This document shows positions 1,575 through 62,266 of a stretch of DNA of 64,000 bases, piece by piece. Both the position numbers and the translations under genes were made by a program. Position 1 is the first letter of the stretch; each line of letters opens with the position of its first letter. This DNA comes from Siphonodentalium dalli (Eukaryota; Mollusca; Scaphopoda; Gadilida; Siphonodentaliidae). The stretch is from assembly GCA_032622095.1 (NCBI GenBank), contig CP136069.1, forward strand, positions 185,245,122 through 185,309,121. The letters are read 5' to 3'. The notes below the pieces were generated by a model, which ran no database searches, had not been told where the DNA came from, and saw nothing but the letters and a program-made list of their open reading frames with translations.

Positions 1575-1947
1575 TTAACCCTTTCAGTGCCAAGTCCGAT
1601 TTTTGTATCAACCCATATACCCTGTGCCAATGCATTTTCTTATATATGCGAGTCGACCATAGGTCGCCTCGCATATATAAGAGAATGCATTGGCCTAACA
1701 ATTTTTCATCATTTGTTATTATTTTTTACAATTTTAATAATTTGTTCTTATATTCTTTAACAGACTTATTTTGTAGGTTTAGTGCCAGGGAATATTACGT
1801 TCTTCATGGGCATCAACATTATTAATATGAATACTTGATGATAGCTTTGAGTTATAACATGCCCCTAAGGTTTTATCCAGTTTGTTTTTAAATTTGCTAT
1901 AGAATGCTTAAGCATACCCAAAAAATATTCAACCCCAAAAAAATAAC

Positions 1948-1982
<35 letters not shown>

Positions 1983-2057
1983 TTATTTTTTTAGGGCCGA
2001 TATTACAGACCGTAAATTAGGGCCGATGAGATCGACCCCTGGCACTGAAAGGGTTAA
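1575..2057. mobile_element. TTAA-flanked MITE (TTAACCCTTTCAGTGCC family)
   Basis: The ends read TTAACCCTTTCAGTGCCA (1575) and its reverse complement, ending at 2057, so the terminal inverted repeats begin directly inside TTAA. TTAA targets with CCC-starting ends are characteristic of piggyBac-type elements; the assignment is inferred because no transposase is present. Inside is one 67-bp hairpin (1627-1693) with 26-bp arms (one mismatch), followed by the T-rich spacer typical of the hairpin core described elsewhere in the window, then a poly-A run (about 1957-1980). The second hairpin of the core is missing in this copy. Confidence 0.75.
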
Positions 2058-2379
2058 AGTGGCGGGCATTTTTCTAACAGTGTAATTACAAGAATAAAAC
2101 ATTGTTCACAACGCATTTGTGGTAATCCATGTTCGCATTCCAACAACTTCTCTTCGTGGTACATGTACTTATTAATTAAATCCGTCGTTAAGTAAGACAG
2201 TTTGGCAACATTTCAGAAATAAATTGTTTATCTTCTACAACACAATTATCGTCTTACTTGCAGCACGACTTTGTCGTGTGATCGTCACGGAAGCGTTTTC
2301 TTTCAGAGTATGGTTAATACATTGCCGCCGGTGAAGTGTATTCTCGGATAAGAAACAAATAGGCCTATGCTGAGGGCAG

Positions 2380-4600
2380 AAACTAAAGTTGCGAGAGGCA
2401 CCCCTGGTTGAGTGTGGGATATTTGGCACTCGAGACTTGGTTAGAGGGTTTTCGTTGGGGTGGTCTCCACCTTGGAATTTCCAAATGCACCCCACCCCAT
2501 TGAACCACACCAAACTCATAAGTTTGCGTAAATCAATTTGCACCCCCCCCCCTTTGCTTTTTCCCAAATGTTCCCTCACAGACTACCAGATGGTAGACTA
2601 TTCCAAATGAACCAGTAATATTGTGGCCACTTGTCGTGCGGGGGGGGATGCAAAAGATGGTTCGGCCCAGTATGAGATTAAAACATCTTAACATCTAGTG
2701 GTATAACACCACACAAATTTACACCCCGATCTATTTTTTCTTAAATTAATTAGCGAGTAACTACTGGCAAGGACACAGAGCACACGCACGGGTCGGCCGA
2801 TGGTTAGGCCCGATGTGAGAACATTTTTGAAATATGAACATGAACATTTGACAATCCTATAGCATAGACGGGCCTCAAGTTTTCCAATTCTGGGAAATTA
2901 TTAACCTGACACTCACCCATAGGTTTCAAAACTGCCAACTGATGGACATTTGAGTCCATAATTTTGCAAATGAAAGGGAAATATGCAAATGTTGGTCTAA
3001 AAACAACAAATTCGCCACTAGGAAAGTGTTGGAAAATCAAACTACGAGAACAATTTCAACCTAATTTTGGTGTGAATTTTCCAATTAATTTTGCTCGGGG
3101 TATTAGGTATGACTACAATTGGGGGGTAAAACCCCTGCATAACCACCCCTGTCGACAACTCCCTACTTGACACCCCATGCTAAATAATCGATACTAAGTT
3201 ATGTTGGGTGGCACCTGGGGGGGGGGTCAGGGGCTACATCCCAGCCCTGTCGGGGAGTCGTAGCCATCCCCCGTCGGTGAGTTATGTAATGGTCAACCCG
3301 GCAGCTAAAGCCTCCCCCCCCCTGTCGGGGATATCCTGGTGCCACCCCCGTTTGAAATCATATAAAACTTTTAAAGAAGAAGACCACATATTGAGCCGAA
3401 ATCAGGGGGAAACGAGCTCTCGTAACCACAAAAGTGCACTAAAGACATCCCAAGAAATGCAAATTAAATGCAACCGCATATTGTATATATATGGTATCGT
3501 TCTGTTTGCCTCTCTATATCCAGGGACGTGGCTATATGGTTTCCGTTAGGGGGTGTCCACCATGGGAAATTCCAACTGCACCCCCTTGAATCAGAATCAC
3601 CCCAAACACAAATTCCATTTGCACCATCCCCCTTGTACATCAGTGCTCACGCCTAATATCCTATATATATTTTTTTTAAACATGGTTCTATATTCCAGGT
3701 TTGAAAATTCAGATAGTTTAACCTGAACAATTGCATAAATCATAACATATAATTGTCTAACTCCAAACAAATTCCCACGGATACGGGCAAGAGGCGGGGA
3801 CACACCGGGTTGACCATGGTTCTTCGGCCCGGTGTGAGAAAATTTTTAAAACTATAAAAGAAAATATTAAATCCTAGCATGCATCTAGACTGGCCTCAAC
3901 TGAACCTTTCCTGGTGTTGGAATTTTCAAACCTCATATTCCCCCTCAGGTTGGAAAACTCTCCAACTGATGACTATTTCAGTCCACAAGTTTGACCAAAT
4001 GAAGTAAAATATTGTTTTGTTAAACTAATTAGCAGTTTTGTATTGGCCACGGGGGAAGGTACAATGACAACGATAGTCGGCCCGGTGATTTTTTTTTTTT
4101 TAATCTGAACAAGAAAATCTCAAAATCCTAGCATTTAGACTAGCCTCAAACCTTCCTAGAGTTGGACATTTCAAACCCGACACCCCCACTTAGGTTGGAA
4201 ATTTTCAACTGATGACAATTCCAGTGACAATGTTGACCAAATGCATGATAATATTATTTTTTTAAATTAACTAGCAGTTTTTTGACTGGCCACGGGGGAG
4301 GGACCAGGACACAAATTGTCCAAGTGTTGGAAATTTCCAACCTGTCACCCTCCTAAGGTTGGAAATTTCCGACTGATGACCATTTCAGTCCAAAATATTT
4401 ACCAAAAATAGGAAAATATGCAAATAAATTGTTTGAAAATCAAACTACAAGAACATTTTCAACTTAATGTTGGTGTGAAATTTCCAACTAATGTTTTGGC
4501 AGGTATGACATTTCCAACTGTTGAACATTTTGACCAAAGTTGGGGGGGGGGTGTGAGACACCCCAACCCCTGTCGGCACGTCTCTGCCTATATCATATAA
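2380..4600. repeat. Two degraded copies of a dispersed repeat related to foldback II
   Basis: The blocks 2380-2600 and 3520-3660 resemble 24281-24440: a CCACCTTGGAATTTCC-like stretch, runs of C, then TTCCCTCACA. The blocks 2640-3170 and 3790-4600 resemble 24470-24830, with a CGGCCCGGTGTGAGAA-like motif followed by A-rich text with GGAAATTTCCAAC motifs. Both copies lie in the same orientation. Poly-C and poly-G tracts are frequent. The short ORFs here have no recognisable product and are treated as chance. Confidence 0.6.
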
Positions 4601-5015
4601 ATACTTTTTCTAAAAACCCTTAAACCAACTCGACGTGCCATTTCCCATGCGCTCCTGTTGCGCAAATTCTAGTATAAAAAGTGCGTCTTTTCAGACAAAG
4701 TTCAAACAGTAAATGTGACCAGACAAGACATAGAAACCGCTAATCTCATATTACCAATATGACAACACCAGTCGAACATGATTACCTTTCAAAGCAATAA
4801 CACCGGGCACCAACTTACGGACAACCACAGGCACGCACACCATGGATAAATACACGGTAAAAAGAACGGCGTTTTTTGTGTACGGTTATATCTGAACGGG
4901 CTACGAGCATCTGACTGTAGTTCTTTCGTGTTCGTGTATATCTAAACGAGATGTAAAGGTTGATGTACGTAAGATAGTACAGAGAAAAATCATCTACTCT
5001 GAAATTCAATAGAGT
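4601..5015. other. Intergenic DNA, nothing recognised
   Basis: Spacer between the degraded repeat and the left target duplication of foldback I. No coding or RNA signal was recognised. Confidence 0.4.
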
Positions 5016-5023
5016 ATCAAGAA
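5016..5023. repeat. Left target-site duplication of foldback I
   Basis: ATCAAGAA here and again at 10321-10328 directly flank the inverted repeat. The match extends to 10 bp (ATCAAGAAGG) if the first two bases of the element are counted. Confidence 0.8.
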
Positions 5024-5929
5024 GGGACATGACAATCTGCGGGATGGGATGGGATATGGGACAAAACGACAATCTGCAGGACAGAATTTCAAATTGCTAG
5101 GGACGGCCGATATCTCGAGGAATACAAGGCGTAGGGGGCTCATTGTGGTGCTCATTATTTGATCAACAACTGATCTAACATGGGGTGGAATTTGGTGATA
5201 GAATGACAATCTGCGGAACAGGATTTTCAAATTGCGTGGGACGGCCGATATCTCGAGGAATACAGCGCGTAGAGGGCTCCTTTTGGTATCTCACGAAAGT
5301 TCCACATTCGCCCTATCCACACATATTAACCCCGTCACTGACCGGACACCGGAAGTTACATTATTCGGTCGACAACTGACCTAACATAAAATGCCACAAA
5401 CACGAAAAACTGCGTTCGACATTAATGTTTAGAATTTAGATTTCTCGATGAATACGGTAGCAAACAACAAGTTTGGGTATCAAATAACGCAGTGGAATAC
5501 TGTGCATTCGTTTTTAGCTACAATATGGCTGTTTTATTGCGAATATTGTAATGGCGAACACGCAAACACGTGCCGATAAAACAGCTAAAAATAGACTCGA
5601 TGTTTACAATTACAGGATCGATTTCAGATGGTATATTCAATAGAATGGGGCGAATAGTATATCAAAATGTAGGATTAGACACAGGGAATGTATTTTTTTT
5701 AAATGGGTCCCACCAGGCGGTGAAATTGTTGCAGAAATTCGCTCCAAGATATTCGAACTTATGTTTATTTCAGTTGTGACTAAAAGCCCAGATGCCAGAG
5801 CCAGGCGACTAAAAGCCAAGTTACAAAATAGATCAACTGGTTTGAACGAATGAATATGTCAATAGTAAGACTATTCAAAAGAATATTCAAATCAAATAGT
5901 GTGTATAGACTTAAAAACTTATGTGTCCG

Positions 5930-7795
5930 CCATTCATATGCGGTGGAAGTTCTCATATTATCTGCCAGTCATACGCGGGGGAGGTTCTCATATGAATATA
6001 TTATCTGCCGGTCATATGCGGTGGAGGTTCATATTATCCGCCGGTCATACGCGAGGGAAGTTCTCATATTATCCTCCGGTCATACGCGGGGGAGGTTCTG
6101 ATATGAACATATTATCCGCCGGTCATACGCGGTGGAGGTTCATATTATCCACCGGTCATACGCGAGGGAGGTTCTCATATTATCCTCCGGTCATACGTTG
6201 GGAGTTTCTCATATGAACATATTATCCGCCGGTCATACGCAAGGGAGGTTCTCATATTATCCACCGGCCATACGCGAGGGAGGTTCTCATATTATCCTCC
6301 GGTCATACGTAGGGGAGGTTCTCATATGAACATATTATCCGCCTGTCATACGCGGTGGAGGTTCATATTATCCGCCGGTCATACGCGAGGGAGGTTCTCA
6401 TATTATCCTCCGGTCATACGTGGGGGAGGTTCTGATATGAACATATTATCCGCCGGTCATACGCTGTGGAGGTTCATATTATCCACTGGTCATACGCAGG
6501 GGAGGTTCGCATATGAACATATTATCCGCCGTTCATACGCGGTGGAGGTTCTCATATGAACATATTATCCGCCGGTCATATGCGATTGAGGTTCTCATAT
6601 TATCCACCAGTCATACGCGAGGGAGGTTCTCATAGTATCCTCCGGTCATACGTTGGGGAGTTTCTCATATGAACATATTATCCGCCGGTCATACGCGAGG
6701 GAGGTTCTCGTATTATCCACCGGTCATATGCGAGGGAGGTTCTCATATTATCTTCCGGTCATACGTAAGGGAGGTTCTCATATGAACATATTATCCACCG
6801 GTAATACGCGGTGGAGGTTCACATTATCCGCCGGTCATACGCGAGGGAGGTTCTCATATTATCCTCCGGTCATACATGGGGGAGGTTCTGATATGAACAT
6901 ATTATCCACCGGTCATACGCGGTGGAGGTTCATATTATCCACTGGTCATATGTAGGGGAGGTTCTCATATGAACATATTATCCGCCGGTCATACGCGGTG
7001 GAGGTTCTCATAAGAACATATTATCCGCCGGTCATATGCGAGGGAGGTTTTCATATTATCCACCGGTCATATGCGAGGGAGTTCTCATATTATCCTCCAG
7101 TCATACGTGGGGGAGGTTCTCATATTATTCTACGGTCATACGTGGGGGAGGTTCTCATATGAACATATTATCCACCGGTCATAAGCGGTGGTGGTTCTCA
7201 TATGAACATATTATCCGCCGGTCATACGTGAGGGAGGTTCTCAATGAGAACTTCTCATATTATCTGCCGGTCATACGCGAGGGAGGTTCTCATATGAACA
7301 TATTATCCGCCGGTCATATGCGGGGGAGGTTCTCATATGAACCTATTATCCGCCGGTCATACGCGAGGGAGGTTCTCATATTATCCTCCGGTCATACGTA
7401 GGGGAGGTTCTCATATGAACATATTATCCACCGGTCATACGCGGTGGAGGTTCATATTATCCGCCGGTCATACGTGAGGGAGGTTCTCAATGAGAACTTC
7501 TCATAGTATCCTCGGGTCATACGTTGGGGAGGTTCTCATATGAACATATTATCCGCCGGTCATACGCGAGGGAGGTTCTCATATGAACATATTATCCGCC
7601 GGTCATATGCGGGGGAGGTTCTCATATGAACCTATTATCCGCCGGTCATACGCGAGGGAGGTTCTCATATTATCCTCCGGTCATACGTAGGGGAGGTTCT
7701 CATATGAACATATTATCCGCCGGTCATACGCGGTGGAGATTCATATTATCCGCAGTCATACGCGAGGGAGGTTCTCATTCTCATATTACCTCAAA
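5930..7795. repeat. Minisatellite array in the left arm of foldback I
   Basis: About 50 units of 33, 35 or 43 bp share the core TATTATCCGCCGGTCATACG followed by a purine-rich GAGG. The 43-bp form carries an extra CATATGAACA. Because these lengths are not multiples of three and the units have few stops, ORFs appear in all frames with recurring VIRGGGSHMNILSAGHTRWR-like peptides. These should not be read as genes. Confidence 0.9.
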
Positions 7796-7799
7796 TCAA

Positions 7800-9350
7800 A
7801 CGAGGATAATATGAGAACCTCCACCGCGTATGATCGGCAGATGATATGTTCATATGCAAACCTCCTCCGCGTATAACCGGCGTATAATATGAGAACCTCC
7901 CTTGCGTATGACTGGCAGATAATATAAACCTCCACCGAGTATGACCGTCGGATGATATTTTCATATGAGAACCTCCCCCGCATATGACCGGCAAATAATA
8001 TGAGAACCCCCCCCCCCCCCCCGCGAATGACCGCAGTTAATATGAGAACCTCCCTTGCGTATGACCATCAGATAATATAAACCTCCACCAGGTATGACCA
8101 GCGGTTAATATGAGAACCTCCCCCGCATTTGACTGGCGGATAATATGTTCATATGAGAACCTCCACCGCGTATGACCGGTGGATAATATGTTCATATGAG
8201 AACCTCCCCCAGGTATGACCGGAGGATAATATGAGAACCTCCCCCACGTATGACTGGAGGATAATATGAGAACCTCCCTCGCGTATGACCGGTGGATAAT
8301 ATGAGAACCTCCCTCGCATATGACCGGCGGATAATATATTCATATGAGAACCTCCACCGCGTATGACCGGCGGATAATATGTTCATATGAGAACCTCCCC
8401 TGCGTATGACCGGTGGATAATATGAACCTCCACCGCGTATGACCGGCGGATAATATGTTCATATCAGAACCACCCCCGCGTATGATGGGGGATAATATGA
8501 GAAATTCCCTCGCGTATGACCGGCGGATAATATGAACCTCCACCGCGTATGACCGGCAGATAATATGTTCATATGAGAACCTCCCCCACGTATGACCGGA
8601 GGATAATATGAGAACCCCCCCCACGTATGACTGGCGGATAATATGAGAACCTCCCTCGCGTATGACCGGTGGATAATATGAGAACCTCCCTCGCATATGA
8701 CCGGTGGATAATATGTTCATATGAGAACCTCCACCGCGTATGACCGGCGGATAATATGTTCATATGAGAACCTTCCCTGCGTATGACCGGTGGATAATAT
8801 GAACCTCCACCGCGTATGACCGGTGGATAATATGTTCATATCAGAACCTCCCCCACGTATGACCGGAGGATAACATGAGAACCTCCCTCGCGTATGACCG
8901 GCGGATAATATGAACCTCCACCGCGTATGACAGGCGGATAATATGTTGATATGAGAACCTCCCCTACGTATGACCGGAGGATATTATGAGAACCTCCCTC
9001 GCGTATGAACGGTGGATAATATGAGAACCTACCTCGCGTATGACCGGCGGATAATATGTTTATATGAGAAACTCCCCAACGTATGACCGGAGGATAATAT
9101 GAGAACCTCCCTGGCGTATGACCGGTGGATAATATGAACCTCCACCGCGTATGACTGGCGGATAATATGTTCATTTCAGAACCTCCCCCGCGTATGACCG
9201 GAGGATAATATGAGAACTTCCCTCGCGTATGAACGGCGGATAATATGAACCTCCAACGCATATGACTGGCAGATAATATATTCATATGAGAACCTCCCCG
9301 CGTATGACTGGCAGATAATATGAGAACCTCCACCGCATATGAATGGCGGA
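7800..9350. repeat. Minisatellite array in the right arm of foldback I (inverted)
   Basis: The same units as 5930-7795, but reverse-complemented (TATGACCGGCGGATAATATG core). Unit order differs from the left arm in detail and the array is about 300 bp shorter. A C-run of about 18 lies at 8007-8024. Confidence 0.9.
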
Positions 9351-10320
9351 CACATACGTTTTTAAGTCTATAAACACTATTTGATTTGAATATTCTTTTG
9401 AATAGTCTTACCATTGACATATTCTTTCGTTCAAACCAGTTGATCTATTTTGTAACTTGGCTTTTAGTCGCCTGGCTCTGGCATCTGGGCTTTTAGTCAC
9501 AACTGAAATAAACATAAGTGCGAATATCTTGGAGCGTATTTCGGCAACAATTTCATCGCCTGGTGGGACCCATTTAACACAAATACATTCCCTGTGTCTA
9601 ATCCTACATTTTGATATACTATTCGCCCCATTCTATTGAATATACCATCTGAAATCGATCCTGTAATTGTAAACATCGAGTCTATTTTTAGCTGTTTTAT
9701 CGGCGCGTGTTTGCGTGTTCGCCATTACAATATTCGCACTAAAACAGCCATATTGTAGCTAAAAACGAATGCACAGTATTCCACTGCGTTATTTGATAAC
9801 CAAAACTTGTTGTTTGCTAGCGTATTCGTCGAGAAATCTAAATTCTAAACATTAATGTCGAACGCAGTTTTTCGTGTTTGTGGCATTTTATGTTAGGTCA
9901 GTTGTCGACCGAATAATGTAACTTCCGGTGTCCGGTCAGTGGCGGGGTTAATATTTGTGGATAGGGCGAATGTGGACCTTTCGCGAGACACCAAAAGGAG
10001 CCCTCTACGCGCTGTATTCCTCGAGATATCGGCCGTCCCACGCAATTTGAAAATCCTGTCCCTCAGATTGTCATTCTATCCCAAATTCTACCCCATGTTA
10101 GGTCAGTTGTCGATCAAATAATGCAACTTCTGGTGTCCGGTCAGTGGTGGGGTTAATATGTGTGGATAAGACGAATGTGGGCCTTTCGTTAGACACCAAA
10201 ATGAGTTCCCTACGCCTTGTATTCCTCGAGATATCGGCCGTCTCACGCAATTTGAAATTCTGTCCCGCAGATTGTCGTTTTGTCCCATATCCCATCCCAT
10301 CCCGCAGATTGTCATGTCTC

Positions 10321-20825: not shown

Positions 20826-21698
20826 TGGTCGGTGGAAGTGGCTCTGGGGTATGAGGTCGCACCCTCTAACAGCTGCGGCCCAGTCAAGATCACAGGCGGA
20901 GGAGCTACTCAGGCCGAGAAGAAAGGCCCGGGACACCGTCGCAGGTATGCTGAAGCAAGGGCTAGGTGGATCACGAGGAATGATGAGAGACGCCCAACTA
21001 CCTCCCATCTGGTTCCTCCCCCTGGACATGATCAACATCCCGGTGCTACATCCACTGAAACAACATTTCAGAGGCCAACTGACGACATCCAGACTGCCTC
21101 TGCAGTGGATAAGCAAATTGCACATCAATATCACCCTCTTAACCCTTTACCCAACAGAACGGCCCTGTGCCAATGCATTCTCTTATATATGCGAGTCGAC
21201 CATAGGTCGCCTCGCATATATAAGAGAATGCATTGGCTTAACACATTAATAATTATAAAATTGTTAAAGAATGTAAGAAAAAATGGTAAAAAGTGTTAAA
21301 AAAAGATTTTTTTTAGGCCAATGCATTCTCTTATATATGCGAGGCGACCTATGGTCGACTCGCATATATAAGAGAATGCATTGGCACAGGGCATAACTGT
21401 AACTATCACAATGTGGTAAAGGAGCCGGTTCCAATGATATCCATATTTGTATGGTTCTATTGAGACAGACCGAAGATATTTTAGGCTGTTGAAGCTTTAT
21501 TTGGCCGGTTTTGGCCGTTTTGTTGGGTAAAGGGTTAATCTTCTGCCACCGGTGGAAACTACAGGGACGCCGACCTTATGGTCCAAGCTGAAATTGGACT
21601 CGTTCCTAGCGCTCAGACTCCACTTCCGGTGGAAGCGTTACATCGTGGAACTGGACGGAACAGTGAGCGGAGTGTCTGAGCCAGGTACGAGACTATAG
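20826..21698 (+). pseudogene. Possible broken ORF interrupted by a TTAA MITE
   Basis: One plus-strand frame is open from 20826 to the TTAA at 21139-21142. If the 400-bp MITE and one TTAA are ignored, the same frame stays open from 21539 to a TAG at 21696, about 158 codons in all. There is no ATG at its start, and an upstream TAA lies at 20823. The region is richer in GC than its surroundings, which alone makes stops rarer, and long ORFs exist in other frames too (20557-21249 plus, 20655-21134 minus). No domain was recognised. It could be an exon remnant, a decayed retroelement gag-like piece, or chance. Confidence 0.25.
21139..21538. mobile_element. 400-bp TTAA MITE with double hairpin core
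   Basis: The ends are TTAACCCTTTACCCAACA and its inverse. Hairpin A is at 21170-21236 and hairpin B, the exact reverse complement type, is at 21318-21384. They are separated by a T/A-rich spacer and bounded by CCCTGTGCC/GGCACAGGG. One flank has a longer subterminal region with AAAGCTTCAACAGCC-like text (inverted here). TTAA on both sides indicates piggyBac-like targeting; no coding capacity. Confidence 0.9.
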
Positions 21699-22029: not shown

Positions 22030-22340
22030 TCGAGCATTCAACTACATTTAACAATTTTTATATATTTTTTTATCATTTTTTCTTACATTCTGTAACAATT
22101 TTTATCATTTTTTCTTATATTCTTTAACAATTTTATCATTTTTTATCATTTTTTCTTACATTCATTATCATTTTTTTATCATATTTTCTAACATTCTTGA
22201 ACAGTTTTTATCATTTTTTGATTACTTTCTTTAACAATTATAAAAAATATTATCAAATTTGTTAGACCAATGCATTCTCTTATATATGCGAGGCGACCTA
22301 TGGTCGACTCGCATATATAAGATAATGCATTGACACAGGG
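22030..22340. mobile_element. Partial hairpin MITE with expanded AT spacer
   Basis: Hairpin B alone survives (22267-22333, mutated at its last positions) with the following ACACAGGGTTA. In front of it the usual spacer text (TTTTTATCATTTTTTCTTACATTCTTTAACAA-like) is tandemly repeated about six times. Hairpin A and both outer ends are gone. Confidence 0.7.
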
Positions 22341-23656: not shown

Positions 23657-24110
23657 GCTAGATCGTAAGTCGGGATTTTTTTTACCCTGTACCAATGCAT
23701 TCTCTTATATATGCGAGTCGACCATAGGTCGTCTCGCATATATAAGAGAATGCATTGGCCTAACAATTTTTTATCATTTTTTTTAAATAAATGTTTCTGA
23801 CAATTTTTAGGACATAAAATAAAAAAAACATCCATTACCGTGCAGGGAGCCCCACACATATATAGAAGCATATAGAAGAGTGTCGTCTGCTCATGTTTGT
23901 CTGGGGCTCTGTATGGGTGAAATTATAAAATTGTTAAAGAATTGTTAAAGAATACAAGAAAACATTATTAAAATTGTAAAAAATTGTTAGGCCAATGCAT
24001 TCTCTTATATATGCGAGGCGACCTATGGTCGACTCGCATATATAAGAGAATGCATTGGCACAGGGTAAAAAAAATCTCTACTTACGACTGGATTTGATAT
24101 GGCGGGTCAC
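23657..24110. mobile_element. GTGACCCGCC-family MITE, left end lost
   Basis: The right end finishes with GGATTTGATATGGCGGGTCAC (24090-24110). The left end starts only at ATCGTAAGTCGGG, so about 25 bases of the TIR are missing. Hairpin A is at 23692-23758 and B at 23992-24058. The interior contains TAGAAGAGTGTCGTCTGCTC, a stretch found only in this family. The host text ATGCTAGATCGT occurs directly on both sides of the element (see findings). Confidence 0.8.
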
Positions 24111-24280: not shown

Positions 24281-26150
24281 GACGTGGCTATAGTGTTTCC
24301 GTTGGGCGGGAGGAATGTCCACCTTGGAATTTCCATACCAAACTCGCGGGTTTGCGTAATTACATTTGCACCCCACCACATTGGGCTTTGATTTCCCCAA
24401 ACTGTTTCCTCACATGCCTGGGTGGTAGCCTATTCTGAATAGAGCAGTAGTCGTGTAGCCATGCATGTGAACAGTTTGAGATTAAAACCCGAAAATTGCA
24501 TGATTCGGTCCGGTGTGAGAAAGTAACATTTTGAATCTGAACATGAACATTGCAATATCCTAGCTACTGGACTGCATGGCCTCAAGCTTTTCAAGTGTTC
24601 ACAATTTCCAACACGATGTCCCACTATAAGTATGGTTGGAAAATTTCCAATAGATGACCGTTTCAGATTAAAATTTTGACGGAAGGTAGGAAAATATGCA
24701 AATGTTGGTCTAAAACAACTAATGTTGTGCCAGGTATGAGATTTCCAATTACTGAACATTCTGACAAAAGTTGGGGAGGGGGAGGGGGCTGAGACACCAC
24801 CAAAAGAAATCCAGTCGCCACGTCCCTATCTGAAGGGCAATATACATGCTAATTAATTTCGCTTCCGTGCAATCTCGATAGGTATAATAATTCTAAATTA
24901 CGAAACTGTTCAATAATCCTAAATGTAGTCGTCATGTTTAGCGAAACGAAATTTACGGATACAAATAGCTAAAAGTATGCGATACTCTATCCGCGTCACA
25001 TGCGAAACCTCTCTAATAGAAAGGATTCGCAACTCACGGATAGAGAAACGGATACATTTAGATATTCGTATCCATAAAATTCGTTTCGCTAAACATGACG
25101 ACTACATTTAGGATTTGTATTTTGTACTTTAGAATTAACATACCGATTGAAATTGCACGAAGTGGCAAATGAGTTAGCATTATATCGTCTGCGGACAGAG
25201 ACATGGCCACAGGGACGTCGCGATAAGGAAGGTTGGGATGGGGGGGGTATCTCATCCCCAACTTTGGTCAAAATTTCCCAACAGTTGGTAATTTCATACA
25301 TTGTACCTGACACAACATTAAATGGAAATTTCACACTAGCAATAGGTTGAAATTCTCTCGCAGTTTGATTTTCCTACTATTCATAAGTGGGGAATTTGTT
25401 GTTTTTAGACAAACAATTGCATATTTTCTTACTTTGAGTAAAAATATTGGACTAAAATAGCCATCTGTTGGAAATTGTCCGACCTTAAGGGGAATATCGG
25501 GTTGAAAATTCCAACACTTGGAAAGCTTCTGGTCAGTCTAGATAGGATTTTGCAGTTTTCATGTTCAGATTTCAAAATGTTCTCACACCGGGCCGAACCA
25601 TGCAATTTTCAGGTTTCCATTTCAAATGTGACCCGTCATATCAAATCCCGTCGTAAGTCGGGATTTTTTACCCTGTGCCAATGCATTCTCTTATATATGC
25701 GAGTCGACCATAGGTCGCCTCGCATATATAAGAGAATGCATTGGCCTAACACTTTTTTATCATTTGTTTTTTTATAAATGTTTCTTACATATTTAGAAGC
25801 ATATAGAAGAGTGTCGTCTGCTCATGTTTTTCTGGGGCTCTGTATGGGTAAAATTATAAAATTGTTAAAGAATACAACAAAAAATTATTAAAATTGTAAA
25901 AAATTGTTAGGCCAATGCATTCTCTTATATATGCGAGGCGACCTGTGGTCGACTCGAATATATAAGAGAATGCATTGGCACAGGGTAAAAAAATCCCGAC
26001 TTACGACTGAATTTGATATGGCGGGTCACAAATGTTCTCATGTAGAGCCACACCACTAGTGATCCATTCAAAACAGGATACCGCCCTTGTCTGCGAGGGA
26101 CAAGTTAGGAAATTCAATGTCCAAGGGGGCGGGTGTGTCATGGTTACATA
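24281..26150. mobile_element. Foldback element II
   Basis: Text from about 24281 to 24830 reappears reverse-complemented at 25190-25627 and 26030-26100. An inner pair (about 24895-25010 and 25020-25130) matches around a centre near 25015, with GTCGTCATGTTTAGCGAAAC opposite its inverse. The right arm is interrupted by a GTGACCC MITE (25628-26029). Related unpaired copies occur at 2380-4600. Ends and target duplication are not resolved, and no transposase is present. Confidence 0.7.
25628..26029. mobile_element. GTGACCCGCC-family MITE nested in foldback II
   Basis: The ends are GTGACCCGTCATATCAAATC and an inverse GGCGGGTCAC. Hairpin A is at 25678-25744 and B at 25912-25978. AAAT lies on both sides. 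The opposite arm of foldback II (about 24460-24480) provides the uninterrupted equivalent of this site, which supports a 4-bp target duplication. Confidence 0.9.
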
Positions 26151-26151: not shown

Positions 26152-26607
26152 GTGACCCGCCATATCAAATCCAGTCGTGAGTCGGGATTTTTTTACCCTG
26201 TGCCAATGCATTCTCTTATATATGCGAGTCGATCATAGGTCGCCTCGCATATATAAGAGAATGCATTGGCCTAACAATGTTTTACAATTTTAATAATTTG
26301 TTCTTGTATTCTTTAACAATTTTATAATTTCACCCATACAGAGCTCCAGACAAACATGAGCAGACGACACTCTTCTATATGCTTCTATATATGTGTGGGG
26401 CTCCCTGTAGGGTAATGGATGTTTTTTATTTTATGTCCTAAAAATTGTCAGAAACATTTATTTTTAAAAAATGATAAAAAATTGTTAGGCCAATGCATTC
26501 TCTTATATATGCGAGGCGACCTATGGTCGACTCGCATATATAAGAGAATGCATTGTCACAGGGTAAAAAAATCCCGACTTACGACGGGATTTGATATGGC
26601 GGGTCAT
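26152..26607. mobile_element. GTGACCCGCC-family MITE, interior inverted
   Basis: The left end is GTGACCCGCCATATCAAATC; the right end is GGCGGGTCAT with a mutated last base. ATAT flanks both sides. Hairpin A is at 26203-26269 and B at 26490-26556. The single-copy interior (GAGCAGACGACACTCTTC) runs opposite to the copies at 23657 and 25628, as expected for insertion in the other orientation of an otherwise palindromic element. Confidence 0.9.
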
Positions 26608-27783: not shown

Positions 27784-27959
27784 TGTTATTGAATTTTGAA
27801 ACAGATTATAAACGGACATGCATGTACATTATTTTGTGTATGAAATGTTATAGTGCGAAAATCTAGGTCGATAACTACCAGTAAGCACATAATGCCCTCT
27901 TCGTACCCGGAAAAAGTTACTGCAGTCATGGACTTATAAACAAAGTTGTCTAATACTAT

Positions 27960-28283
27960 GTACGGGTTATAACCTTAGTATCATATGTACGGGTTATAAC
28001 CTTAGTATCATATGTACGTGTTATAACCTTAGAATCATATGTACGTGTTATAACCTTAGTATCATATGTACGTGTTATAACCTTAGTACCATAGGTACGT
28101 GTTATAACCTTAGTATCATATGTACGTGTTATAACCTTAGTATCATATGTACGTGTTATAACCTTAGTATCATATGTACGTGTTATAACCTTAGTATCAT
28201 ATGTACGTGTTATAACCTTAGTACCATAGGTACGTGTTATAACCTTAGTATCATATGTACGTGTTATAACCTTAGTATCATAT
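27960..28283. repeat. 27-bp minisatellite, 12 copies
   Basis: The unit is GTACGTGTTATAACCTTAGTATCATAT-like. Twelve exact-length copies fill 324 bp with very few differences. Because 27 bp equals nine codons, a minus-strand ORF of 135 codons (27956-28363) runs through it as a repeated TYDTKVITR peptide. It has no other coding support and lies in an intron of the cysteine-rich gene. Confidence 0.95.
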
Positions 28284-28839
28284 GTTTTATCAGTTATCAA
28301 CATCGGGTGATTAATATCATGATTGATAACACGGTAAACAACATTCACCATGGGAACTGACATGTTAAATTCGGGTGATAAATACAGTCAATTTCATTTA
28401 ATTACATAGCACCACATGGTCTTTAATGCAATTAACCGAATAGGTATTATATACCCGAAATCACGTAATACTCCCACATATGGTGTTGTTTACAGAACCT
28501 GTCTAGATATATATACCAGTCTAGTTGTTTGTTTCGATTGTTTTATTTGCGGTGCCGGTAGTTACGGTCTATTGGTCGTATTTTTGATTGTTTTTAAATA
28601 TATTGCCACATAACGAGCCCAATCTATATTAATATTTCTCAAATTAAGGTTATATCATGTTATATCATCATCTAAAATTCAGTAATGTTCAAGAATAAAA
28701 CTATTTTCTCGCCGGCAGCCCCATTCTAAACACTGCACCCATGCGTACATTCATAATTTATTCAACACAAAACATATAAGAAATGTATACCACCAACTGC
28801 CATCACCGTAATATAATAAACAAAAACCAAACATTTATC

Positions 28840-31300: not shown

Positions 31301-31700
31301 TTAACCCTTTACCCAACAAACCGGCCATAACCGGCCAAATAAAGCTTCAACAGCCTAAAATATCTTCGGTCTGTCTCAATAGAACCATACACATATGGAT
31401 ATCATTGGAACCGGCTCCTTGACCACATTGTGATAGTTACAGTTATGCCCTGTGCCAATGCATTCTCTTATATATGCGAGTCGACCATGGGTCGCCTCGC
31501 ATATATAAGAGAATGCATTGGCCTAAAAAAAATCTTTTTTTAACACTTTTTACCATTTTTTCTTACATTCTTTAACAATTTTATAATTTTTAATGTGTTA
31601 AGCCAATGCATTCTCTTATATATGCGAGGCGACCTATGGTCGACTCGCATATATAAGAGAATGCATTGGCACAGGGCCCTTCTGTTGGGTAAAGGGTTAA
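31301..31700. mobile_element. 400-bp TTAA MITE beside exon 3
   Basis: TTAACCCTTTACCCAACA ends on both sides, hairpin A at 31455-31521 and hairpin B at 31603-31669. It is exactly 400 bp including both TTAA, as in the other complete copies. The right end lies 20 bp from the splice donor of exon 3 of the minus-strand gene. Confidence 0.92.
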
Positions 31701-36587: not shown

Positions 36588-37360
36588 AAAACTGGAACGA
36601 GATAGCCATGGTAACTCGGGCCACTGGCCAATCAGGACATGGCTTTTAAGCATAGTTAGGCAGGGTCGTATTACAATAAAATATAGACAGACCTTGTTCT
36701 TACACCATCAGAAATATGGCATAAACAGTATGTTATTGTCAATATTTTTCCTTTGTTATGTAAACAAAAGTAAAAAACTTTACGTTGCCTGGCTTTTGTT
36801 TAGATCCGGATATGGTAAACATAAAGAGCGTTATTTGTTATTGTTTTCCTAATATGGAAATACTAAAGAGCGTTTATATCATTTGTGTGTGATTAACCAA
36901 TAGAATTTCGCTGTGTGATGTAAACAGAAGCACAACTTCTGGAACACGATCAGGCTCTTGTTTACGTACATGTACACCATCGTACGTCTTGACGACAATA
37001 TACTATTTACGCGCTGATTATGTTTGGCATATGAACAAAACAATACATATTTTAATATTCCTTCTGTTGATGGCGATTTGAACATAAATGATTATTTCTA
37101 ACGCCGCCTGTGCCTTTAAAGACATATTATTGACTTCTTCGGGTGCGTTGTCAATTAGGATATAATATTTGTAAAAACAACTAATTTGAGCAAGAGGGTT
37201 CTCCGTTTGTATTTGGTTACCCTACCGGAGTGTTTCACGTGACCTTAAAAATCGACTGTCATATTTGATATCATAGATTGCCATTGGTACCTGGCCTGTA
37301 CCTGGGAATTTTCAGCATTTTGAATTTTAGCCATGCAGGGTGGCACAGAATCCAATGATC
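36588..37360. other. Intergenic DNA
   Basis: No gene was recognised. The short ORF at 36879-37085 (minus) has no motif or exon boundaries. Confidence 0.4.
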
Positions 37361-39347
37361 GTCCTTGATACAGGGTGTCCGTGATTTAGTTTCATAATAG
37401 AGTGTGTTCCCACTAAGAGTCGTCTCTGATACAGGGTGTCCGTGATTTAGTTTCATAATAGAGTGTCTTCCCACTAGGAGTCGACTCTGATACAGGGTGT
37501 CCGTGATTTAGTTTCATAATAGAGTGTCTTCCCACTAAGCGTCGTCTCTGGTACTGGGTGTCCGTGATTTAGTTTCATAATAGAGTGTCTTCCCACTAAG
37601 AGTCGTCTCTGATACAGAGTGTCGGTGATTTAGTTTCATAATAGAGTGTCTTCCCACTAAGAGTCGTCTCTGGTACTGGGTGTCCGTGACTTAGTTTCAT
37701 AATAGAGTGTCTTCCCACTAAGAGTCGTCTCTGATACAGGGTGTCCGTGATTTAGTTTCATAATAGAGTGGCTTCCCACTAAGAGTCGACTCTGATACAG
37801 GGTGTCCGTGATTTAGTTTCATAATAGAGTGTCTTCCCACTAAGAGTCGTCTCTGATACAGGGTGTCCGTGATTTAGTTTCATAATAGAGTGTCTTCCCA
37901 CTAGGAGTCGACTCTGATACAGGGTGTCCGTGATTTAGTTTCATAATAGAGTGTCTTCACACTAAGAGTCGTCTCTGATACAGAGTGTCCGTGATTTAGT
38001 TTCATAATAGAGTGTATTCCCACTAAGAGTCGACTCTGATACAGGGTGTCTGTGTTTTCATTTCACAATAGAGTGTCTTCCCACTAAGAGTCGACTCTGA
38101 TACAGAGTGTCGTGTTTTCATTTCACAATAGAGTGTCTTCCCACTAAGAGTCGACTCTGATACAGGGTGTCCGTGATTTAGTTTCATAATAGAGTGGCTT
38201 CCCACTAAGAGTCGTCTCTGATACAGGGTGTCCGTGATTTAGTTTCATAATAGAGTGTCTTCCCACTAAGAGTCGTCTCTGATACAGGGTGTCCGTGATT
38301 TAGTTTCATAATAGAGTGTCTTCCCACTAAGAGTCGTCTCTGGTACTGGGTGTCCGTGATTTAGTTTCATAATAGAGTGTCTTCCCACTAAGAGTCGTCT
38401 CTGATACAGGGTGTCCGTGATTTAGTTTCATAATAGAGTGGCTTCCCACTAAGAGTCGACTCTGATACAGGGTGTCCGTGATTTAGTTTCATAATAGAGT
38501 GTCTTCCCACTAAGAGTCGTCTCTGATACAGGGTGTCCGTGATTTAGTTTCATAATAGAGTGTCTTCCCACTAGGAGTCGACTCTGATACAGGGTGTCCG
38601 TGATTTAGTTTCATAATAGAGTGTCTTCACACTAAGAGTCGTCTCTGATACAGAGTGTCCGTGATTTAGTTTCATAATAGAGTGTATTCCCACTAAGAGT
38701 CGACTCTGATACAGGGTGTCTGTGTTTTCATTTCACAATAGAGTGTCTTCCCACTAAGAGTCGACTCTGATACAGAGTGTCGTGTTTTCATTTCACAATA
38801 GAGTGTCTTCCCACTAAGAGTCGACTCTGATACAGGGTGTCCGTGATTTAGTTTCATAATAGAGTGGCTTCCCACTAAGAGTCGTCTCTGATACAGGGTG
38901 TCCGTGATTTAGTTTCATAATAGAGTGTCTTCCCACTAGGAGTCGACTCTGATACAGGGTGTCCGTGATTTAGTTTCATAATAGAGTGTCTTCACACTAA
39001 GAGTCGTCTCTGATACAGAGTGTCCGTGATTTAGTTTCATAATAGTGTGTATTCCCACTAAGAGTCGACTCTGATACAGGGTGTCTGTGTTTTCATTTCA
39101 CAATAGAGTGTCTTCCCACTAAGAGTCGACTCTGATACAGAGTGTCGTGTTTTCATTTCACAATAGAGTGTCTTCCCACTAAGAGTCGACTCTGATACAG
39201 GGTGTCCGTGATTTAGTTTCATAATAGAGTGGCTTCCCACTAAGAGTCGTCTCTGATACAGGGTGTCCGTGATTTAGTTTCATAATAGAGTGTCTTCCCA
39301 CTAAGAGTCGTCTCTGATACAGGGTGTCCGTGATTTAGTTTCATAAT
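37361..39347. repeat. 61-bp satellite array with higher-order structure
   Basis: About 32 units of GGTGTCCGTGATTTAGTTTC / ATAATAGAGTGTCTTCCCAC / TAAGAGTCGTCTCTGATACA type. Variant units occur in a fixed order: paired units with GTGTTTTCATTTCACAATAG at 38042-38160, 38712-38830 and 39077-39195. A block from about 37731 recurs 670 bp later (11 units), and part of it again 365 bp after that (6 units). The 60-codon ORFs on the minus strand are the same satellite text three times. The array stops in mid-unit at ATAAT, where the retrotransposon begins. Confidence 0.95.
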
Positions 39348-39545
39348 CACCGGACAACCGGACGTGCCGGACGTGTTCTCGTTAGCTCCAGGATTTACTT
39401 ATGCATACCTAATCAAAATGACTATATATAGGATCTAGGATGTTAATGATAGGTGCATTTCAGCAACTCTAATGATTTGAGGAAGATAGTGGTGCATAGT
39501 AATCTGATGGAAATTTCTTGAATATAGCTTAATATTATCACCAGG

Positions 39546-48967: not shown

Positions 48968-49022
48968 GGAGCTACCCGTTATATATTGACGCTTTGTGTA
49001 GAATGGCTTCATATGCGGTTAA

Positions 49023-49296
49023 AATCTCATCCAGTTGTACCAGTGGCATATTAACCCTTTACCCAACAAACCGGCCAAAACCGGCCAAATAAAGCTTCAA
49101 CAGCCTAAAATATCTTCGGTCTGTCTCAATAAAACGATACAAATATGGATATCATTGGAAATCTCATCCAGTTGTACCAGTGGCATATTAACCCTTTACC
49201 CAACAAACCGGCCAAAACCGGCCAAATAAAGCTTCAACAGCCTAAAATATCTTCGGTCTGTCTCAATAAAACGATACAAATATGGATATCATTGGA
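49023..49296. repeat. 137-bp tandem duplication across a MITE/host junction
   Basis: 49023-49159 is repeated at 49160-49296. Each copy contains about 28 bp of LINE sequence (AATCTCATCCAGTTGTACCA) followed by the TTAA end of the MITE (TTAA at 49051 and 49188) and about 105 bp of its subterminal part. Confidence 0.9.
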
Positions 49297-49587
49297 ACCG
49301 GCTCATTGACCACATTGTGATGGTTATAGTTATGCCCTGTGCCAATGCATTCTCTTATATATGCGAGTCGACCATAGGTCGCCTCGCATATATAAGAGAA
49401 TGCATTGGCCTAAAAAAAATCTTTTTTTAACACTTTTTACCATTTTTTCTTACATTCTTTAACAATTTTATAATTTTTAATGTGTTAAGCCAATGCATTC
49501 TCTTATATATGCGAGGCGACCTATGGTCGACTCGCATATATAAGAGAAAGCATTGGCACAGGGCCCTTCTGTTGGGTAAAGGGTTAA
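49188..49587. mobile_element. 400-bp TTAA MITE in the LINE (first)
   Basis: From the second TTAA copy (49188) to the closing GGGTTAA (49587) it is exactly 400 bp. Hairpin A is at 49342-49408 and B at 49490-49556. It splits the region between the RT and the terminal knuckle of the LINE. Confidence 0.9.
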
Positions 49588-49715
49588 ATGATGCAATGCG
49601 CGAACAGCGCAGCGGGGTAGCTGGGAATTCGATATTCAAAAGTCTGGAGTCATTTTGGCTTGACCCTCCGACATTACTAACAACAAGCCTCTAATTAACA
49701 ATCTTCTAAAGTGAT

Positions 49716-50115
49716 TTAACCCTTTACCCAACAGAAGGGCCCTGTGCCAATGCATTCTCTTATATATGCGAGTCGACCATAGGTCGCCTCGCATATATAA
49801 GAGAATGCATTGGCTTAACACATTAAAAATTATAAAATTGTTAAAGAATGTAAGACAAAATGGTAAAAAGTGTTAAAAAAAGATTTTTTTTAGGCCAATG
49901 CATTCTCTTATATATGCGAGGCGACCTATGGTCGACTCGCATATATAAGAGAATGCATTGGCACAGGGTATAACTGTAACTATCACAATGTGGTCAAGGA
50001 GCCGGTTCCAATGATATCCATATTTGTATGGTTTTATTGAGACAGACCCAAGATATTTTAGGCTGTTGAAGCTTTATTTGGCCGGTTTTGGCCGGTTTGT
50101 TGGATAAAGGGTTAA
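49716..50115. mobile_element. 400-bp TTAA MITE in the LINE (second, opposite orientation)
   Basis: TTAACCCTTTACCCAACA at the left, TGTTGGATAAAGGGTTAA at the right with one mismatch. Hairpin A is at 49747-49813 and B at 49895-49961. The long subterminal arm is on the right, opposite to the copy at 49188. Confidence 0.92.
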
Positions 50116-50604: not shown

Positions 50605-50681
50605 ACAAATTACGTGTGTTGAATCATGTATGATAACTCACTCTGCAGATACAAATATACGCAATTAATGAATATATATAT

Positions 50682-53406: not shown

Positions 53407-53636
53407 TTAAAAAAAACGAAGAATATTCTCAATTATGATCCTTTATACACGTGTTCAACATAAAACTGAATGATGCGTTTAATAGAACTGAATGATGCGT
53501 TTGTGGATTTTCGAGATGCGTGTGTCATGCATACACAGAACGACACGAGTCCATTTGCCAATTGGTGTATTGCTACGGCACGAGTGTCAGCGCGGAAGTA
53601 TAGAACGAGGGGCGCAGCAAAATTATTCAGCCAATC

Positions 53637-54113
53637 ATTACATCGAGTGCCGTACCCAACCATTACATCGAGTGCCGTACCCAACCATTACATCGAGTGC
53701 CGTACCCAACCATTACATCGAGTGCCGTACCTAATCATTACATCAAGTGCCGTACCCAATCATTACATCGAGCGCCGTACCCAACCATTACATCGAGTGC
53801 CGTACCCAACCATTACATCGAGCGCCGTACCCAACCATTACATCGAGTGCCGTACCTAATCATTACATCAAGTGCCGTACCCAATCATTACATCGAGCGC
53901 CGTACCCAACCATTACATCGAGTGCCGTACCCAACCATTACATCGAGCGCCGTACCCAACCATTACATCGAGTGCCGTACCTAATAATTACATTAAGTGC
54001 CGTACCCAATCATTACATCGAGCGCCGTACCCAATCATTACATCGAGTGTCGTACCCAATCATTACATCGAGTGCCGTACCCAATCATTTCATCGAGTGC
54101 CGTACCCAATCAT
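53637..54113. repeat. 25-bp minisatellite, about 19 copies
   Basis: The unit is CATTACATCGAGTGCCGTACCCAAC-like with variants (TCGAGCGCC, ACCTAATC) in a higher-order order of about 5 units (125 bp). Several overlapping ORFs of 80-129 codons are products of the repeat. Confidence 0.93.
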
Positions 54114-54320
54114 TTAAACAAAACTAAGTATGTGCAACTTAAATGGCGGGCAATTATTCTACAAAACATTAACAAAGAAACAAAGTCATAATCAGAATTT
54201 TTTTTTTAAACCCTCAACATTCAAGCTAGTGATACCTGTAATAGATAACAAAACGCACAAGAAAATATCTCGAAAACATGTTCTGGGATTGTACACACGT
54301 TCAAATATTTATCTCATAAC

Positions 54321-54719
54321 TTAACCCTTTACCCAACAGAAGGGCCCTGTGCCAATGCATTCTCTTATATATGCGAGTCGACCATAGGTCGCCTCGCATA
54401 TATAAGAGAATGCATTGGCTTAACACATTACAAATTATAAAATTGTTAAAGAATGTAAGAAAAAATGGTAAAAAGTGTTAAATTGTTTTTTTTTTAGGCC
54501 AGTGCATTCTCTTATATATGCGAGGCGACCTATGGTCGACTCGCATATATAAGAGAATGCATTGGCACATGGCATAACTGTAACTATCACAATGTGGTCA
54601 AGGAGCCGGTTCCAATGATATCCATATTTGTATGGTTTTATTGAGACAGACCCAAGATAATTTAGGCTGTTGAAGCTTTATTTGGCCGGCTTTGGCCGGT
54701 TTGTTGGGTAAAGGGTTAA
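54321..54719. mobile_element. TTAA MITE with double hairpin core
   Basis: TTAACCCTTTACCCAACA ends; hairpin A at 54352-54418 and B at 54499-54565 (one mutation in its first bases). 399 bp. Confidence 0.92.
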
Positions 54720-55045: not shown

Positions 55046-55433
55046 TTAACCCTTTACCCAACAAACCGGCCAAAACCGGCCAAATAAAGCTTCAACAGCC
55101 TAAAATATCTTCGGTCTGTCTCAATAGAACCATACAAATATGGATATCATTGGAACCGGCTCATTGACCACATTGTGATGGTATAGTTATGCCCTGTGCC
55201 AATGCATTCTCTTATATATGCGAGTCGACCATAGGTCGCCTCGCATATATAAGAGAATGCATTGGCCTAAAAAAAATATTTTTTTAACATTTTTTTTACA
55301 TTCTTTAACAATTTTATAATTTTTAATCTGTTAAGCCAATGCATTCTCTTATATATGCGAGGCGACCTATGGTCGACTCGCATATATAAGAGAATGCATT
55401 GGCACAGGGCCCTTCTGTTGGGTAAAGGGTTAA
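55046..55433. mobile_element. TTAA MITE with double hairpin core, opposite orientation
   Basis: TTAACCCTTTACCCAACA ends; hairpin A at 55199-55265 and B at 55336-55402. 388 bp, with a shortened spacer. It lies only about 330 bp from the previous copy and in the other orientation. Confidence 0.92.
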
Positions 55434-59794: not shown

Positions 59795-60065
59795 TAACCC
59801 TTTATATACTAAAGCATCAGTGATGAGTAGCTATCCCATAGGAAATGTTCATATAATAAGTTTTAACCCTTTATATACTAAAGCATCATTGACGAGTAGT
59901 TATCACATAGGAAATGTTCAGATGATAAGCTTAACTCTCTATACACTAAAGCATCATTAATGAGTAGCTATCCCATAGGAAATGTTCGGATAATAAGCTT
60001 AACCCTTTCTATACTGAAGCGTCAGTGATGAGTAGCTATCGCATAGGAAATGTTCAGAAAATAAG
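59795..60065. repeat. Tandem repeat of about 66 bp, four copies
   Basis: Each unit starts TTAACCCTTTATATACTAAA and contains GATGAGTAGCTATCCCATAG and GGAAATGTTC. A CAACAAACGA/TCGTTTGTTG hairpin follows directly (60069-60093). The TTAACCCTTT start recalls the ends of the TTAA MITEs. Confidence 0.88.
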
Positions 60066-60284
60066 TTCAACAAACGACCATCGTTTGTTGAACGTATTAT
60101 GTTAATATTTTATTCAATAAATACATTAAATACGGGTTCTGCACTTTTATTTATGTGAGGTCTGCTTTTATCAAATTAACATCCCTCCAAATGAATAATA
60201 GACAATTCCGATGTACATTTTTTTAACTAACCGGGAGAATCCATTTAGTATAGAACGAGTTAAATGAGCATCGGTGTTACGTTT

Positions 60285-62266
60285 AGTAGGGGCTAAAAAT
60301 GCAAGGGGTGTCCGCAAAAAGGTGTAGCCAAATTTACTTTCTAATGGCATTTTCAATGGTGCCCACTCGATTTTTAGAACTTTTTTGAACCGAATGTATT
60401 TATTTCTTATCACCTTATTCGAAGATTTTATACACAAAAATGCGTTAATATCCACATTTTAGTGACCGGAATTTATAGCTGACTTCAAATCAGACGGTAA
60501 CCGTTAAGAAAACGTAACGATGACCAGTAATAAACATTCTCGTCGATATACCAAATTGAAGGATTTTCGAATGTACTATTGGCCCTATAGTTGGGAATTC
60601 GTATATAAATTTAATATCCCCGTTGACTAGAGTGTATTGGCTATTCAATAAATTAGTAGTTGAGTCCGTGGGATCAAAATTCCCGATTTACCGAGGGAAA
60701 ACTTAACCCTACCCTCAAACGACCAAGAGTGTCCACGAGCAACCGCGTTTCGTATATATTAAATTATATATCTGAAAAAATATAATTGCTATATCTCACC
60801 AAAGACCTTGCACTATCTACAAGAAGTATAATTGACTACTTATTTTCCAAGATGGCCGCCAAAATGGCGTCCATATTTGAAATAATTACATTTTTCTTCG
60901 AAGTTTGAGTCGATCACACTTTTCCCTAGTATATAGCTTAATAACCATCTTCAGTGTGGCTATACGAAACGCGCTTATTCAAGGACACGCCGGGTGATTT
61001 TGAGGGAGGGTTAAGTTTTGTTTTATGTAAAAATCGATAATGTGTCCCCACGGACGCAACCCCGAGCTCATATTATAGCATATAAGCTCTAGTTTACGGG
61101 CATATAAAAGTCGTTTACGGTGGAGTGAAAATGCCATGAAAATCGAAAGTGTGATCAAGCCAAACTTCCAAGAAAAATGATATTATTTCAAATATGGACG
61201 CAATTTTGGCGGCCATCTTGGATAATAAGTGGCCAATTTTACTCTCCTGTACAGTGCAAGGTCTTTAGTGAGCTGCAGTAATGATATTTTCCCAGGTATA
61301 TAATTTAATAACCATCTCCAATGTGGCTATACGAAACACGGTTGCATGTTCGTGGACACGCTGGGTCGTTTTGGGGAGGATTAAGTTTTCCCTCGGTAAA
61401 TCGGGAATTTTTATCCCACGAACAGAACTATTACTTTATTGAATAGCCAATACACTCTAGTCCACGGGGATATTAAATTTGTATGTACGAGTTCCCATCT
61501 ATAGGGCCATATCAAATCCAGTCGTATGTTGGGATTTTTTTACCCTGTGCCAATGCATTCTCTTATATATGCGAGTCGACCATAGGTCGCTTCGCATATA
61601 TAAGAGAATGCATTGGCCTAACAATTTTTTACAATTTTAATAATTTTGTCTTGTATTCTTTAACAATTTTATAATTTCACCCATACAGAGCCCCAGACAA
61701 ACATGAGCAGACGACACTCTTCTATATGCTTCTATATATGTGTGGGGCTCCCTGCAGGGTAAAGGATGTTTTTTATGTTATGTCCTAAAAATTGTCAGAA
61801 ACATTTATTTAAACAAAATGATAAAAATTGTTAGGCCAATGCATTCTCTTATATATACGAGGCGACATTATGGTCGACTCGCATATATAAGAGAATGCAT
61901 TGGCACAGGGTAAACAAAATCCCAACTTACGACTGGATTTGATATGGCGGGTCACATTTCATTAATTTTTAACGGTTACTGTCTAATTTGAAGTCAGCTA
62001 TCAATTCCGGTCATTAAAAAGTGGACATTAACGTCTTTTAGTGTATTAAATCTTCGAGTAAGGTGATAAGAAATAAATACATGCCGTCCAAAAAAGTCCT
62101 AAACAATCGAGTGGGTACATTTGGAAATGCCATTGGAAAATGAATTTTACGACACGCAATTTTGTGCACAAAACGATCCAGAAACTAGAATAATTTTCCA
62201 ATTAAAAATACTAGTCGCATAAATTCACCTTTTTCCGGACACCCCTTGCATTTTTCGTCCCTACTA
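60285..62266. mobile_element. Foldback element IV (about 2 kb) with nested MITE
   Basis: The ends TAGTAGGG...AAAATGCAAGGGGTGTCCG and their inverse lie at 60284-60320 and 62230-62267. Long imperfect arms match to a centre near 61080, for example TATTGAATAGCCAATACACT opposite its inverse and CCAAGATGGCCGCCAAAATG opposite about 61195. The TIR just inside TA could indicate Tc1/mariner-type targeting; this is a guess. A GTGACCC MITE occupies 61505-61955 of the right arm. No transposase was recognised. Confidence 0.8.
61505..61955. mobile_element. GTGACCCGCC-family MITE nested in foldback IV
   Basis: Left TIR shortened to GCCATATCAAATCC; right TIR complete (GGCGGGTCAC). Hairpin A is at 61550-61616 and B at 61836-61903 (one inserted base). 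Interior orientation as in the copy at 26152. Confidence 0.88.

Follow-up and report, generated by a model that had tools for sequence, protein, structure and literature searches.

Subterminal palindromes and conserved internal regions have been described from several kinds of mobile elements. As judged by description rather than by sequence, the closest precedent for the elements described here are the CMITEs of the coral Acropora (Wang et al. 2010), which are TTAA MITE families of about 100 bp with different TIRs, most of them starting with CCCTTT, and with approximately 1,600 copies (PMC2872659). Between families, their 75-bp internal region shows stronger conservation than the TIRs do, and piggyBac-like transposases have been proposed as their movers; TTAA, CCCTTT and a terminal CC[C/T]T motif are the hallmarks of piggyBac-type MITEs (PMC2872659). 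The piggyBat transposase binds subterminal palindromes via its C-terminal domains (PMC11707139). Kolobok and KolobokP elements, which are present in molluscs, also target TTAA and have termini of the form 5'-RR...YY-3' (PMC9587614).

The elements analyzed here contain a 67-bp hairpin, termed A, of the form CCAATGCATTCTCTTATATATGCGAG-T-CGACC-ATA-GGTCG-C-CTCGCATATATAAGAGAATGCATTGG. It is built of 26-bp perfect arms, an inner CGACC/GGTCG stem and an ATA loop, i.e. a 32-bp stem with a 3-nt loop, and hairpin B is its reverse complement. The window, by which we mean the whole 64-kb stretch of Siphonodentalium dalli DNA that was analyzed, contains 22 hairpins, most of which are exact. A first-pass annotation of the window had described the hairpin in the same terms, and all copies that it listed were recovered, including the A followed by B in the F1 and F2 elements and the A without B in the F3 element (Table 1); it had missed the lone B at 22267. 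When the search was extended to the 2.23-Gb genome (9 contigs), as this annotation had proposed, the 35-bp hairpin centre gave 57,025 + 56,701 = 113,726 exact matches, which is far above chance, as the reversed pattern used as control gave 0 matches in the same genome. These hairpins, at least about 114,000 exact ones when counted by the 35-bp centre, lie close to the ends of small mobile elements that belong to at least four families with differing outer ends.

A and B together form a paired core with the edges CCCTGTGCC/GGCACAGGG (CCCTGTG/CACAGGG), which had been recognized before and show scattered point changes. The order A then B, thought to be invariable, is indeed strongly preferred: adjacent hairpin pairs less than 400 bp apart (n = 81) comprise 74 AB, 6 BA and 1 BB, and the single close BA pair of the window (49490-49747) represents the junction between two separate elements. 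The unpaired T.C mismatch has the same orientation in 220 of 225 hairpins. A spacing of about 80 to 230 bp between A and B had been given, which agrees with the values for F1 (about 80 bp) and F2 (about 220 bp), but the range in our sample is wider (56-231 bp). A can pair with B over 76 uninterrupted bp in F1 (computed fold, z -25) and over about 133 bp in F2 if the 51-bp outer repeats are included; the single stem of more than 200 bp that had been suggested is therefore too long for either family. A literature search with the sequences gave no match.

Three families, F0, F1 and F2, carry the paired core, and a fourth, F3, carries hairpin A alone. F1 elements (TTAA+CCCTTTACCC; 400 bp; TIR CCCTTTACCCAACA), whose core begins 27 bp inside the TTAA on the left and 154 bp inside on the right, are young (about 1-2% divergence) and number at least 30,573 by exact end tags genome-wide. 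F2 elements are about 457 bp long and consist of near-identical 51-bp outer repeats starting with GTGACCCGCC and a core with a 220-bp interior; they duplicate 4 bp of the form AWWT (ATAT, AAAT, ATTT) and number at least 9,500 (19,007 exact ends). This duplication can be seen directly at locus L120, where an F2 element nested in the arm of an F0-type hairpin has ATAT on both flanks. F3 elements begin with TTAA+CCCTTTGAGTGCC (in full, TTAA+CCCTTTGAGTGCCAGG or ...CAGTGCC), and there are at least 8,008 of them by exact tags. The older family F0 (TTAA+CCCTTTCATGACGGGAGC; at least 643 copies by exact tags), which was absent from the first-pass annotation and was found via an interior-tag search, has the layout TTAA, CCCTTTCATGACGGGAGCTTCCTGAATTTTTGCGAAAA, core, TCTTTAATGTTGCGCCAGCGCAGCTCCCGTCATGAAAGGG, TTAA, and its two hairpins lie about 45 bp from their respective ends. 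Hairpin A is located 31-51 bp from one end in F0, F1, F2 and F3. Hairpin B is dispensable, being missing from F3 and 154 bp away from the right end in F1.

Complete copies of F0, F1 and F3 have TTAA at their start and end, a putative target duplication, and these families have TTAA+CCCTTT in common, beyond which their outer ends cannot be aligned. The terminal CC[C/T]T motif and TIRs of about 12-19 bp are also present in all three (CCCTTTACCCAACA, CCCTTTGAGTGCCAGG, CCCTTTCATGACGGGAGC), which would thus be classified by the TTAA and CCCTTT hallmark as piggyBac-type TTAA MITEs. F2, which duplicates AWWT and starts with GTGACCCGCC, lacks the TTAA target of this group; it alone among the four families has a foreign target site and foreign ends. 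Because F0, F1 and F3 share TTAA and CCCTTT, the outer ends are not completely different; the earlier view that ends and target sites differ completely holds for F2, and does not hold for F1 and the family of the element at 1575, both of which have TTAA+CCCTTT. The two end types belong to separate elements and are not parts of one larger element. As the interior repeat unit next to the hairpin occurs in all families, the core is homologous across them. The genome contains 128 matches to DDE_Tnp_1_7 (piggyBac transposase), many with long open frames; the downstream 1-kb (3') flanks of 35 of these 128 transposases contained no autonomous piggyBac with F0, F1 or F3 ends.

Table 1. Hairpin-carrying elements in the window (window coordinates)
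Element	Position	Strand	Hairpins	Remarks
F3	1575..2057	+	A only, 1627-1693	TTAA+CCCTTTCAGTGCC ... GGCACTGAAAGGG+TTAA
F1	21139..21538	+	A 21170-21236, B 21318-21384	TTAA...TTAA, 400 bp
Lone hairpin B	22267..22340	+	B, no A	with CACAGGG edge, after AT-rich F0-like repeat interior; no recognised ends
F2	23657..24110	.	at 23692, 23992	left end lost, right end GGCGGGTCAC
F2	25628..26029	.	25678-25744, 25912-25978	AAAT target duplication
F2	26152..26607	.	at 26203, 26490	ATAT target duplication
F1	31301..31700	-	at 31455, 31603	
F1	49188..49587	-	at 49342, 49490	
F1	49716..50115	+	at 49747, 49895	
F1	54321..54719	+	at 54352, 54499	
F1	55046..55433	-	at 55199, 55336	
F2	61505..61955	.	at 61550, 61836	left end truncated

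The copies at 23657 and 61505, which had been assigned to F2 together with the two intact elements, do contain the core, but both have lost their left end. In the window, a perfect 137-bp tandem duplication (49022-49295) takes in the left portion of an F1 copy along with its flank. The long core of F2 contains in its interior, for example at 26337-26416, a stem of about 80 bp (GAGCCCC...GGGGCTC), for which Rfam has no family at gathering score. Satellite-like repeats of 35/43 bp form a large inverted structure in the window (5192-10085; arms of about 790 bp, 96-97%), which also harbors tandem arrays with units of 61, 25 and 27 bp (37237-39485, 53506-54221 and 27903-28361, respectively). Elsewhere in the genome, F1 copies close to the beginning of contig 1 (G000, C1:742000-916000) follow each other at regular intervals of about 14.5 and 11.2 kb, which indicates tandem arrays of large units, and at L111 the right arm of an F1 copy is broken by a different palindromic element, whose CCC...GGG ends lie beside TA. 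L070 (about 870-1160), L148 and the flanks of L120 hold an old subfamily of F0, in which the stem is the alternative CTCCC/GGGAG. Two loci, L115 (C1:4495906-4497790) and L116 (C1:4549483-4551390), have F2-type ends and only the outer arm of each hairpin; between them lies a stretch of about 1.3 kb that contains long inverted GGC/TA repeats together with an open frame. The frame of L116 (605-1138; 177 aa) scores 51.4 bits against the Bcl-2 family of Pfam (PF00452; cut-off 31.4) and has Bcl-xL as its best PDB match. The junctions of this cargo coincide exactly with the two hairpin tips; these loci represent a gene-carrying MITE relative.

The sequence of the hairpin has remained constant over waves of different age. 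The F0 consensus of A and B is identical (134/134) to the canonical 67-mers of F1 and F2, and hairpin A of F3 is exact in several copies. With 9-12% neutral change, 12-16 changes would be expected in these 134 bp, yet none is observed between F0 and the young families, and the adjacent interior repeat unit differs from the F0 unit at 2 (F1), 4 (F2) and 6-7 (F3) positions per 35 bp. Individual F0 copies diverge from the F0 consensus by 12-14% in their outer portions and by 12.7% in hairpin B, which is unbiased in this comparison, as the tag used to gather the copies lies at the margin of hairpin A and biases only that arm. For comparisons within families we distinguish unbiased samples, i.e. 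elements picked by their ends with the hairpin ignored, from loci picked by their hairpin, which are biased for conservation tests. In the unbiased samples of F1 and F2 combined, sites with shared variants are rarer in the hairpins (3 of 268) than outside (38 of 589; Fisher p = 0.0004). Private changes amount to 0.27% in the hairpins versus 0.67% outside in the unbiased F1 sample (p = 0.018), and to 1.75% versus 1.9% in F2. Constraint within families is statistically modest, and some conversion may have occurred among F1 copies. Copies mostly decay normally after insertion, and it is the source lineages that preserve the hairpin.

Where the inner stem does vary, it varies in pairs. In addition to the first type (CGACC/GGTCG), a CTCCC/GGGAG stem accounts for about half of the first 100 listed of 6,259 centres without the G, and a third type, CGCCC/GGGCG, was seen 17 times versus 2 for its one-sided form among the first 100 centres of a separate listing; no CTCCC/GGTCG chimera occurs among the first 100 non-canonical centres listed. 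Within copies, 139 changes are one-sided and 6 two-sided, and on this ground arm-to-arm self-correction of the palindrome was rejected. Since the arms are not mutually corrected and the T.C mismatch is kept, a copying artefact is an unlikely cause of the paired stem changes. These lean towards the folded form, but they could derive from one or two events. Taken together, the constant F0 consensus, the paired stem changes and the normal decay of single copies suggest that the hairpin is under selection in lineages that are active, and the hairpin probably has a task in the making of new copies.

On balance, and with little more than even confidence, we regard the core as an old palindromic module that lies close to the ends in a piggyBac-like MITE lineage inserting at TTAA, and that was kept through the replacement of these ends. 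F0, with a hairpin close to each end, would be the probable first carrier. Later waves would have retained the core or half of it, with the outermost ends presumably being replaced: F3 and F1 have only TTAA+CCCTTT in common with F0, and in F2 the core is enclosed by long inverted repeats of another type, which duplicate AWWT. The transposases that make new copies would read the outer ends; copies with broken hairpins would amplify poorly, and this would hold the hairpin constant. We infer the molecular role of the hairpin, as well as the reason why F2 has the core: most likely it would act in cis as a palindrome or extruded hairpin near the end, either for the transposition machinery or for repair that restores the donor. 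The success of F3 with a single hairpin counts against this explanation, and so do the failure to find an autonomous partner in the flanks of 35 of the 128 transposases and the statistically modest constraint within families. In addition, a piggyBac-specific binding site does not account for F2, because the target site of F2 differs; that F2 carries the core suggests that the role of the hairpin is not tied to one transposase, or that the core is a passenger in F2. A more general possibility, unlikely in our view, is that the hairpin represents a transposase-independent amplification module, which would raise the copy number of any MITE that carries it and would have spread through successive unrelated families, perhaps by promoting copying in replication or break repair, or by shielding its carriers from silencing.

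In some single copies (L135, L149 and the window copy at 23657) an end has been lost at the edge of the core, which shows how an exchange of ends could begin. One-sided losses of this kind, at the edge of the core or adjacent to it, and likewise the cargo joined exactly at the hairpin tips in L115 and L116, would also be expected if palindromes were hot spots of breakage or template switching and end exchange were a by-product of cruciform cutting and not of selection on the hairpin. This accounts for the exchange, but not for the constancy of the sequence or the retained T.C mismatch, and we consider it rather unlikely.

Among elements picked by their ends, at least one full hairpin is present in 19 of 20 F1, 18 of 20 F2 and 9 of 10 F3 copies (in F3 the single A). 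A pattern search for core-less F1 elements returned 5 places with 0 empty sites, 4 of which contain remnants of the core, and a strict pattern search for core-less F2 elements gave 0 matches. Cores with G/C before TA number at most 394 genome-wide, and inspection showed many of them to be mutated copies of F2 or F3; the near-isolated cores inspected (L066, L052, L151, L144) show no clean target duplication. Because hosts without the core were not found and isolated cores are rare and lack a clean duplication, we conclude that the host families amplify the core, which at present is probably no separate MITE. Of the two alternatives offered in the first-pass annotation, movement of the core by itself between families is not supported, as isolated cores are rare and lack a clean duplication, and its retention during the exchange of ends is the better supported, given the separate ends and target sites and the high proportion of carriers. 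Neither of the two outcomes that the annotation had named as refuting its reading was obtained: one larger element with both end types does not exist here, and the core showed no clean target duplication of its own. The core might nevertheless have originated as an independent MITE with CCCTGTG/CACAGGG ends and a TA target, which inserted separately into the founders of F1, F2 and F3 and was amplified as a passenger. The edges are sharp in every family, and TA is found beside the core in F2, where it lies at the centre of the palindrome T7A7, in F3, and at L066, L052 and L151. However, TA is absent from F1 (G/C) and from the older F0 (AA/TC), the few G/C-TA cores, the missing duplications and the failure to find empty F1 or F2 hosts all speak against separate insertion, and a passenger would not remain frozen; we therefore think this origin distinctly improbable.

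We take a similarly sceptical view of a function as RNA, by which transcripts of the elements would fold into hairpins or long double strands that feed or evade small-RNA silencing, thereby favouring carriers under any transposase. The 32-bp stem with its 3-nt loop, the compensated stem changes, the strong pairing of A with B and the occurrence of the hairpin in families with two target types would all suit such a function. However, an Rfam search of the hairpin yielded only look-alikes of miRNA families, all of them sub-threshold and rejected as matches since any long perfect hairpin yields such hits, and the constancy of the perfect 26-bp sequence exceeds what the fold alone would need. Least probable of all is a neutral hitchhiker kept constant through recent waves or conversion between copies, since, although F1 is young and copy numbers are high enough for conversion, the hairpin consensus is the same in F0 despite approximately 13% decay, private changes in F2 hairpins match the rate outside and were not cleaned by conversion, and one-sided decay predominates.

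MITEs contain no genes, and why a few of them reach 10^4-10^5 copies is an open question on which this case bears. One short palindrome has stayed constant while the ends, the interior and even the type of target site changed around it. This might reflect a hidden cis-requirement for amplification, which could be tested directly by altering the 67-bp element, and it also shows that the ends alone do not suffice to classify MITE families.

Palindromes near the ends are also known from Foldback and Helentron-type elements. The present elements differ from these by having ordinary TIRs and target duplications and no rolling-circle hallmarks. F0, F1 and F3 resemble Kolobok elements in their TTAA target, but membership in this group was rejected, as their termini are 5'-CCC and not 5'-RR. 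With piggyBac MITEs and piggyBat they have in common the TTAA target, the CCCTTT termini and end-proximal palindromes; however, the known palindromes are imperfect and about 14 bp long, in contrast to 67 bp with 26-bp perfect arms here. The likeness is closest to the coral CMITEs, in that the internal part is again more conserved than the TIRs, with hairpins identical in the F0, F1 and F2 consensus. In contrast to CMITEs, the conserved part is a paired 67-bp hairpin with three stem types and more than 10^5 exact copies (well over ten times more), one of its carriers, F2, generates AWWT duplications, and the invariance was measured over waves of differing age.
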